DNA of 64,000 nucleotides from Lactiplantibacillus garii (GTDB taxonomy: Bacteria; Bacillota; Bacilli; Lactobacillales; Lactobacillaceae): NCBI RefSeq assembly GCF_003885105.1, contig NZ_QWZQ01000010.1:1-64000 (forward strand). Direction: 5' to 3'. The translations under genes were made by a program, and so were the position numbers. Under the pieces are notes generated by a model that saw only the letters and a list, made by a program, of their open reading frames with translations, was not told the origin of the DNA and made no database searches. Within the stretch, counting starts at the first letter, position 1, and the number at the start of each line of letters is the position of its first letter. Of the stretch, positions 27,639-29,928 are shown in pieces.

Positions 27639-28292
27639 ATGATTAAAGTTGCCCCTTCAATTTTGAGTGCGGATTTTGCTAATTTACAACGGGACGTGCA
27701 GATGGCGGAAAAGGCCGGCGCGGATTTGTTGCACATTGACGTCATGGACGGCCAGTTCGTACCGAATTTATCCTTTGGGATGAGTACCGTGGCGGATCTA
27801 CGGCCGGTGACTTCGCTGACCCTGGACTGCCACTTAATGATCGTGGAACCGGAACGTTTCGTGGAAGCCTTTGCGAAGGCCGGCGCGGACTTGATCGGGG
27901 TCCACGTGGAAAGCACCAAGCACATTTACCACGTGTTACAACTGATCAAAGCGGCCGGTGCCAAGGCCGAAGTCGTGATTAATCCCGGCACGCCGCTGGA
28001 CATGGTCAGCGAAGTTTTGCCGTTAGTTGACCAAGTACTGATCATGACCGTTAACCCCGGCTTTGGCGGCCAGCACTTCCTGGAACCAATGGTCGCTAAG
28101 ATTAAGGCCCTAGACGCTATCAAACGCGAAAAGGGTTATAACTTTGACATCGAAGTCGACGGCGGCATCAACGCCGACACCGTGAAGGCGTGCTACGCGG
28201 CGGGAGCCACGGTCGCGGTGGCCGGTTCTTACGTTTACGGGAGTGCCGACCCGGCTGCCCGGATTCAGGACCTTAAAGTGGCGACGAACTAA
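27639..28292 (+). CDS. rpe: Ribulose-phosphate 3-epimerase
   Basis: Rpe interconverts ribulose 5-phosphate and xylulose 5-phosphate in the pentose phosphate or phosphoketolase pathway. The 217-residue TIM barrel begins KVAPSILSADFANL and has LLHIDVMDGQFVPNL, LDCHLMI, VMTVNPGFGGQ-type (here IMTVNPGFGGQ) and EVDGGI motifs holding the metal-binding His and Asp residues. ATG at 27639 is preferred to a GTG at 27630 that overlaps its binding site. One-base overlap with thiN (TAATG). Confidence 0.95.
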   Translation: MIKVAPSILSADFANLQRDVQMAEKAGADLLHIDVMDGQFVPNLSFGMSTVADLRPVTSLTLDCHLMIVEPERFVEAFAKAGADLIGVHVESTKHIYHVLQLIKAAGAKAEVVINPGTPLDMVSEVLPLVDQVLIMTVNPGFGGQHFLEPMVAKIKALDAIKREKGYNFDIEVDGGINADTVKACYAAGATVAVAGSYVYGSADPAARIQDLKVATN

Positions 28293-28930
28293 TGACCACG
28301 GTAAATTTATTGGTGGGTGGTCCGACTGAGAATTGGCCGGACCATTTAGAAACGTTACCGGGGCCGTGGGTCGGTGCCGACCGCGGGGCGCTTCGACTTG
28401 TCAAAATGGGGATTCAACCGGTGATGGTCGTTGGGGACTTCGACTCGATCAGCAGTCGTGAGTTGGCGACGGTCAAGGCCGCGTTAGCCGGTTTGGTGAT
28501 TGTTAAGCCGGACCAGGACCACACCGACACGCAGTTGGCACTCAAATCCATTTTTGAGCAGCTCGCGCCGGACGAAGTGCACGTGTACGGCGCTACCGGG
28601 GGCCGTTTAGACCACTTATTAGCTAACGTGTGGTTAGTCTTGGACCCGTTTTTTCGGCAGTGGGCGCCGCAAATTAAGCTGATCGACCGCCAAAACAGCG
28701 TACAGTACTTTTTACCCGGCAGTTACCAGATTCAAAAGGAAGCGGACAAAAAGTACCTGGCGTTCGTACCGCTAATGCCGATGCACCTGACGTTACCGGA
28801 CGAAAAGTACCAGTTACAAGCGGACCACAACGATTACCCAATTTCGTGGGCCAGCAACGAATTTGTCGGCACCAGCGGCCACTTTAGCTTTGACCAGGGC
28901 GTGTTAGCCGTGATTCAAAGTAAAGATTAA
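28292..28930 (+). CDS. thiN: Thiamine diphosphokinase
   Basis: ThiN converts thiamine to thiamine diphosphate with ATP. The 212-residue protein contains VGADRGALRLVKMG, VVGDFDSIS and the DQDHTDTQLAL motif with acidic catalytic residues, then GATGGRLDH, all family hallmarks. It overlaps rpe by one base. Thiamine diphosphate is needed for phosphoketolase, which acts on the product of the neighbouring Rpe. No TPP riboswitch precedes the unit. Confidence 0.93.
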   Translation: MTTVNLLVGGPTENWPDHLETLPGPWVGADRGALRLVKMGIQPVMVVGDFDSISSRELATVKAALAGLVIVKPDQDHTDTQLALKSIFEQLAPDEVHVYGATGGRLDHLLANVWLVLDPFFRQWAPQIKLIDRQNSVQYFLPGSYQIQKEADKKYLAFVPLMPMHLTLPDEKYQLQADHNDYPISWASNEFVGTSGHFSFDQGVLAVIQSKD

Positions 28931-28936
28931 TAAGTA

Positions 28937-28980
28937 AAAGGCGACTAAACGCGAAGGTACGCGGTTAGTCGCCTTTTGTT
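28937..28980 (+). terminator. Terminator after rsgA-rpe-thiN
   Basis: AAAAGGCGACTAA pairs with TTAGTCGCCTTTT around a loop, followed by GTT. Confidence 0.85.
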
Positions 28981-29014
28981 ATGGAGTCGCATTTTTTAGT
29001 GGTGGTAGGGATCC

Positions 29015-29169
29015 GGTGCCCTGCGAAGTGCTTGAAATGATCCTTGTGGGCACGTTTTTGAGCTAATCCAAAGGGCGAATCATCTCAAAAAGCGGTCTTG
29101 TTGTAAGCCCGCAAACGACGCGGACTAACAACAATTTCACAAGGATATTTCAAAAGTTCTCCGGGCACC
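29015..29169 (-). ncRNA. Structured element A (three-way junction)
   Basis: Read on the minus strand, 155 bases fold into a closed structure. Basal stem GGTGCCC/GGGCACC (29169-29163 with 29021-29015); upper stem ATTTCAA/TTGAAAT plus an 8-bp TCCTTGTG/CACAAGGA; a junction with two hairpins, TTGTTGT...ACAACAA (inner AGTCCGC/GCGGGCT) and TTTTTGAG/CTCAAAAA. The inner hairpin has a G-U wobble only if the minus strand is the RNA. It is homologous to element B at 29397-29506, with compensatory stem changes. No protein frame or known family was recognised. Confidence 0.55.
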
Positions 29170-29396
29170 TAGTATTGAAGCTCTGAAATTAGTTTGATGG
29201 TAAAGGCTAAACGTTAATAAATGGACGAGCAATTCGACGTGGCCACTAGCGTTCAAGTTGTTATCAATGGGAAAATAATTGTGTACGAATATGTGTCGTA
29301 GGTATGTTGAAAGGGTACTGTAAGAAGTCTGATTAAAGTAAACAATCTACCAATTTTGATCCTAACGTTTAAAGCTAAAATTGAAGTGGAAGAAGA
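29170..29396. other. Gene-free spacer between elements A and B
   Basis: The two structured elements diverge from this 227-base AT-rich spacer. It contains TAAACGTTA-like palindromes near both ends. A possible TAAAAT -10 precedes element B on the plus strand. No coding sequence with a binding site is visible. Confidence 0.4.
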
Positions 29397-29506
29397 GGTG
29401 CCCGGAGAATTCCGCAAGTTAGCTGTGAAATTGGTGGTAGCTCACGTTTTGGGTAAGCTTACAGCAACGTACCCACAGCTAACTTGCGGGGCTTTCAAAG
29501 GGCGCC
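29397..29506 (+). ncRNA. Structured element B, divergent homologue of A
   Basis: Read on the plus strand, 110 bases give the same plan as element A: basal stem GGTGCCC/GGGCGCC with a wobble, the shared strand GGTGCCCGGAGAA, a perfect 16-bp stem (29412-29427 with 29474-29489), the shared junction GTGAAATTG, and a hairpin TTGGTGGTAGCT...AGCTTACAGCAA. The second hairpin of A is missing. Different stem bases but preserved pairing point to selection on structure. Function unknown. Confidence 0.55.
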
Positions 29507-29522
29507 GGCAACAAAGAAAGCC

Positions 29523-29593
29523 AAAAAAAATCACCATCCGCATTAACGGGTGGTGGTCCTGCAAGGTGCGGGTAACTAGCCGGTTGAATTATA
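29523..29593 (-). ncRNA. Candidate short sRNA with own promoter and terminator
   Basis: On the minus strand ACGACA, 17 bases, then TATAAT (29593-29588) form a plausible promoter. About 25-45 bases after the expected start, CACCACCCG/CGGATGGTG (29556-29532) forms a 9-bp stem with a 6-base loop, followed by an uninterrupted eight-T run (29530-29523). The predicted RNA is only about 55-60 bases and has no convincing frame. It could alternatively be a second terminator for rpmB read-through. Confidence 0.4.
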
Positions 29594-29681: not shown

Positions 29682-29867
29682 CTAAACGCGCGTTACTTTA
29701 CCTGATTTCAAAGTCCGAGCTGAAACCCAAACCTTCTTTGGTTTACCATCAACTAAAATGCGAACTTTTTGCAAGTTAGCTTTCCAGCTGCGGCGGCTGT
29801 GGTTTAAGGCGTGAGAACGCGTGTTACCAAAGTGCGTCCGCTTACCCGTAACGAAGTCTTTTGCCAT
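29682..29867 (-). CDS. rpmB: 50S ribosomal protein L28
   Basis: A 61-residue L28: [27 protein letters not shown] and the C-terminal [17 protein letters not shown] are typical. The start at 29867 has AAGGAGG upstream; an in-frame start at 29918 is rejected. The gene lies alone, divergent from yloU, as in many Firmicutes. Confidence 0.96.
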
Positions 29868-29928
29868 GTTGATCTGCCTCCTTCGGTAATCATTGATAAA
29901 AGGTCGTTGCTTTATCATTCACTAGAAT

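Follow-up and report, generated by a model that had tools for sequence, protein, structure and literature searches.

A pair of structured arms facing away from each other lies between two genes of the window, the 64,000-nt stretch of Lactiplantibacillus garii contig NZ_QWZQ01000010.1 analysed here, and we consider it very likely (probability about 0.8) that this pair is a copy, old and by now degenerate, of a dispersed mobile element that codes for no protein and is foldback-like in that its arms are two mirrored Y-shaped (three-way-junction) modules. As found in the L. plantarum group, the element is a foldback-like, non-autonomous transposable element (MITE) rather than what is left of a large RNA, because it has IS982-type terminal inverted repeats (TIRs) and target duplications, lacks a transposase and shares its termini with intact IS982-family insertion sequences. 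MITEs are usually regarded as stripped-down transposons without cargo of their own; this one bears paired modules with very strong covariation and is plentiful among lactobacilli of industrial importance, the L. plantarum group included.

The window copy and its module family

Module A occupies positions 29014..29170 on the minus strand (GGTGCCC/GGGCACC basal stem, upper stem and two hairpins; model core 29043-29143) and module B positions 29397..29507 on the plus strand (GGTGCCC/GGGCGCC basal stem, upper stem and a single hairpin; model core 29422-29479). The spacer that separates these outward-facing modules (29171..29396) holds no convincing gene, judged by its position and the list of open reading frames. 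The left neighbour is a plus-strand open reading frame (28292..28930) that we take to be thiamine pyrophosphokinase (thiN), and the right neighbour is a convergent frame on the minus strand (29682..29918), presumably ribosomal protein L28 (rpmB). The motifs shared in the same order, the common basal stem and the two differing upper stems that a sequence-only reading had described are all present. Module A folds on the minus strand at −70.7 kcal/mol (z −7.5) and module B on the plus strand at −59.9 kcal/mol (z −5.5), values equalled by none of 200 shuffles in either case. The opposite strands fold more weakly (A −61.8, z −4.7; B −54.1, z −6.8) but still beat their shuffles, since both modules are near-palindromes. 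By eye, terminator-like inverted repeats flank the element on both sides (28938-28977 and 29521-29560).

Compared as DNA, A and B are only weakly alike (72% over ∼73 nt, E 0.27), and the convincing evidence for their kinship comes from other copies. A DNA search with this region found further copies in the L. garii genome and in some relatives, and comparison of six L. garii stretches with the window revealed a longer repeat, with additional modules inverted relative to the first. An alignment of 28 modules, which included A and left out B, showed double changes at 21 of 32 predicted pairs and was used to build covariance model R1. Module A scores 94.3 bits with this model, a value partly built in because A belongs to the training set, and B, from outside that set, scores 29.3 bits (E 1.2e-4) in a whole-genome search. 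The second hairpin of B has been lost, and the window copy is degenerate and old. No convincing TIR or target duplication was found within 200 nt of its modules; it is assigned to the family by module and architecture.

In an alignment of 142 distinct modules (A5), which was fitted to the model and so leans towards it, 98.4% of cells were paired, changes on both sides were seen at 27 of the 32 pairs, and the covariation score was 0.668, compared with 0.056–0.086 when the partners were slid. Unpaired positions are conserved too, namely an A-rich junction and mismatches within both hairpins. The proposal that A and B are homologous three-way junctions with compensatory changes is supported by the covariance model, and strong covariation of the fold across genera agrees with the accompanying claim that structure is under selection. 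Four Lactiplantibacillus loci of one genome (L011, L017, L020 and L022 in G007) have modules with a third hairpin, forming a four-way junction.

Homologues in other Lactobacillaceae, which the same reading had suggested looking for with a covariance model, are widespread. The L. garii genome contains 33 model matches at E≤1; these include 12 outward pairs, whose starts are separated by 346–491 nt. Matches occur in 19 of 21 Lactiplantibacillus genomes (E≤0.001), with 16 to at least 150 copies per genome; these counts are lower bounds, and two genomes have at least 150. With stricter filters (E≤1e-6), 64 of 251 sampled Lactobacillaceae genomes match, representing 13 of 40 genera, and a pattern scan also matched Secundilactobacillus, Companilactobacillus and a Limosilactobacillus MAG. 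In the stretches that were searched with Rfam covariance models, nothing near a gathering score fell on the modules, in agreement with the earlier failure to recognise a family, and none of the papers listed by a literature search clearly describes the repeat. The suggestion that A and B are remnants of a large ornate RNA was not borne out, as no Rfam family of that type matched. Such RNAs, of which ROOL and GOLLD are examples, also covary strongly and occur in lactobacilli, whereas the Y modules are ∼100-nt units in mobile repeats.

The 160 distinct clusters of modules comprise 79 outward pairs, 10 longer arrays, 3 same-strand pairs and 68 single modules. The longer arrays keep the outward pattern (<<>, <<>>, <<<>>, <>>), as do the tandem modules ∼260–330 nt apart at L010, L016, L025 and L026 of genome G010. 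All 89 pairs of opposite-strand neighbours within 900 nt face outward (the pair at L172 is a spurious overlapping antisense match), and a further 37 pairs inspected by eye are likewise outward. This mirrored layout would be expected if one end module had undergone an inverted duplication. Three other genera have single-Y repeats for which the model detects no partner, in one case (G270) as a ∼200-bp unit bounded by GTGCCAAA/TTTGGCAC, and the paired MITE form is therefore not the sole vehicle. A search by eye for an autonomous version with a gene between its modules found only host-type genes between distant matches.

Termini shared with IS982-family insertion sequences

Element ends were located by comparing orthologous copies. 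Pairs of the L. plantarum group sit in an element of ∼0.8–1 kb (819–990 bp in the nine measured) that has no internal transposase and whose consensus terminal repeat is ACGCGTTGTGCTAGTTA. The terminal motif (at least 11 of 16 positions) is present at both ends of 27 of 77 pairs and at one end or more of 58; shuffled flanks reach this level in 244 of 3000 cases, so that ∼0.5 of 77 pairs would have it at both ends by chance. Outside the group the plantarum-type motif was found at both ends of 1 of 39 pairs and at one end or both of 4 of 39, which is about the chance level. Target duplications of 7–8 bp lie at the exact place in 5 of 28 L. plantarum-group elements with both ends, compared with 0 of 756 mismatched pairings and 0 of 20000 permutations; the remaining 23 have no recognisable duplication.

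A search with the terminal-tip pattern retrieved elements that have identical termini and a transposase gene. All four proteins tested from within elements sharing those termini scored above the cut-off of the IS982 transposase model (NF033520), although one (L296) is broken by a stop. Insertion sequences with the same termini have 8-bp duplications in 3 of 10 cases and a 7-bp duplication in 1 of 10. According to PMC7335449, IS982 ends follow the pattern AC(N)6T(N)5TT, and ISLpl4 of L. plantarum has 8-bp repeats; the consensus tip of our elements fits that pattern, and the duplications of 7–8 bp agree as well, the difference from the IS982 family being that the Y element has no transposase gene. 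A related case is MITECca01 of Cardinium, presented in PMC9769881 as a ∼240-bp element with IS982-type termini, no transposase and 169 mostly intergenic copies, derived from a defective parental insertion sequence. The two elements are alike in termini, missing transposase, high copy number and mostly intergenic sites, and the Y element differs in having two covarying modules as cargo and in spanning genera.

An origin of both copies as ends of a DNA transposon had been named as the finding that would overturn the structural proposal. For the best-preserved relatives it largely holds, since they form the two mirrored arms of a non-autonomous element with TIRs at its ends. The Y module is nevertheless not a simple transposon end, because its fold covaries strongly and spans genera. 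We envisage that an IS982-family transposase moves the element in trans, and the window copy may have moved likewise. Of the 21 genus genomes, 13 gave IS982 transposase matches at E≤1e-10 (8 of these exceeding the cut-off) and that of L. garii gave none; thus, transposase presence today does not track the repeat. The L. garii genome also gave no match to the terminal 16-mer at one mismatch or fewer. By eye, its other copies have common outer ends like TTGYGCTGATATTC, which resemble part of the plantarum tip, and one locus (L349) has a 6-of-7 duplication.

REP/BIME, ERIC, BOX and RUP are dispersed intergenic palindromic repeats, and BIMEs have mirrored pairs. The Y repeats are similar in both respects, but the unit is larger (a three-way junction) and has no link to RAYT-type Y1 transposases in the genus. 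Y1 (HUH) transposases showed no phyletic association with the repeat in the 21 genus genomes: they occur in 13, including both genomes without Y, and are missing from several that are rich in Y. Mobilisation of the REP/RAYT type was rejected for this reason.

Orthologous sites

The thiN gene has orthologues in 20 of the 21 genus genomes, and a model match is present at 7 of these 20 loci. At the thiN-rpmB site, L210 looks by eye like a remnant, and the gap in G010 is 152 nt with no remnant. In G004 and G016 the flanks are colinear and the element is inverted. Genome G032 and the draft assembly EGD-AQ4, which represent two species, share nine sites with the element and both flanks, once one-flank pairs, duplicates and rearranged loci are excluded. 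The element is inverted at five of them (L091/L182, L096/L104, L272/L148, L273/L164 and L261/L106), about half of the comparable sites, and not at the other four (L090/L150, L123/L258, L133/L266 and L162/L275); misassembly of the draft could contribute to these calls. Breakpoints fall within the inner inverted repeats near CATGAATCATGATTAAATCATGCC. The outer flanks are unmoved (seen in detail at L096/L104), which argues for inversion rather than reinsertion, and recombination of the inner repeats would flip the element in place. The pair L119/L128 was considered as a possible empty site and discarded, since L128 retains a remnant and represents an internal deletion. At L097, L113 and L181 the flanks of the G032 element match two separate places on a single contig of EGD-AQ4, the pattern that recombination between inverted elements would leave.

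Identity over the nine scored sites, with the misoriented L272/L148 row dropped and L261/L106 not scorable, was 92.0% for the longer Y, 95.6% for the shorter Y, 80.3% for the spacer and 86.9% for the outer arms. Inclusion of the L272/L148 row gave the same order (88.9, 91.8, 76.8 and 84.3%). At 7 of 9 orthologous loci both Y modules had a higher identity than the spacer, and the reverse was seen at L091/L182 and L258/L123; gene conversion or the exchange of spacers could contribute to this difference.

Strand sense and the role of the fold

At paired columns read in the Y sense, G-U pairs outnumber A-C mismatches (104 versus 27 in A5; 37 versus 8 in the sequence-only alignment A2), and of 240 cores, 216 fold better in the Y sense and 22 in the opposite one. 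The strand that folds thus appears to be the Y sense, and the strand originally proposed stands. Together with the strong covariation, these results are what would be expected if the Y modules were independent small RNAs, transcribed outward from the spacer and carried by a mobile element. However, G-U pairs make up just 104 of 4472 cells, and A5 was fitted to a model that favours them. Sigma-70-like promoters in 54 spacers scored barely above resampled sequence (best 8.89 versus 8.58, and 8.80 versus 8.57), and with no clear excess we rejected divergent spacer promoters. The 22 classified single-Y copies had no strand preference relative to neighbouring genes, which also eliminated a 3′-UTR element of one gene. 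We regard the small-RNA explanation as tentative and less likely than not.

Equally tentative is the possibility that selection acts on single-stranded DNA, with the 3′ end of the folded strand facing the terminal repeat and the fold aiding transposition, replication or in-place inversion. The invariant polarity relative to the terminus, the scarcity of G-U pairs, the frequent inversion in place and the lack of gene-strand preference are all consistent with this idea. It is harder to reconcile with the IS982-family insertion sequences, inside which no Y was found (5 model matches among 14 loci searched, all in L299 and L301), or with the failure of Y1 transposases to track the repeat. We consider it about equally likely that the Y module acts as RNA or as single-stranded DNA.

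That the fold is under no selection at all, and that template switching in quasi-palindromes or gene conversion between copies produced double changes in one step, seems improbable to us. Double changes (1109 cells) do far exceed single-sided ones, and spacers have seemingly been swapped between orthologous copies while the arms stayed alike, but this account leaves the conserved A-rich junction and hairpin mismatches unexplained and does not predict the strand asymmetry in folding or the higher identity of both modules than of the spacer at 7 of 9 loci. We similarly doubt that the element is a bidirectional transcription insulator or terminator between genes. By a crude ORF caller, with 35 clusters without a flanking call dropped, convergent gaps are enriched (37 of 125 versus 32 of 195 in the control) and divergent gaps depleted (20 of 125 versus 57 of 195). 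Most copies nevertheless lie in co-directional gaps, as in the control (68 of 125 versus 106 of 195), and the pattern fits insertions tolerated away from promoters just as well.

Under the reading we prefer, a mobile element with mirrored arms, the Y folds would be retained after insertion for what they do as folded single strands, and would serve the element itself as structured end modules (RNA or single-stranded DNA) rather than regulate one neighbouring gene. A bolder proposal, which we consider rather unlikely as a whole, makes the Y module, with its conserved junction and mismatches, itself the unit of selection. It would have reached at least 13 genera of lactobacilli by more than one vehicle (mirrored foldback elements of IS982 type and short single-Y repeats), would stay intact after insertion and, in elements that invert in place, would act with a host or transposase protein that recognises its folded strand. 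If the fold works, the element offers a test case for the use of structure by a non-coding selfish element; otherwise it cautions that DNA repeats, too, can give rise to covariation.

Carriage on phages was dismissed, with no blastn match for three queries, as was plasmid carriage of the L. garii element, which had no match. Plasmid matches were obtained for two plantarum-type queries (26 records each) and, as partial matches, for a single-Y query (6 records). One plasmid of another genus, pSF118-44 of Ligilactobacillus salivarius UCC118 (L244), contains a plantarum-type stretch that covers 32% of the query at ∼91% identity. Genome G151, also from another genus, has one model match and a plantarum-type element (L327) complete with the inner inverted repeat, which looks like a horizontal transfer.
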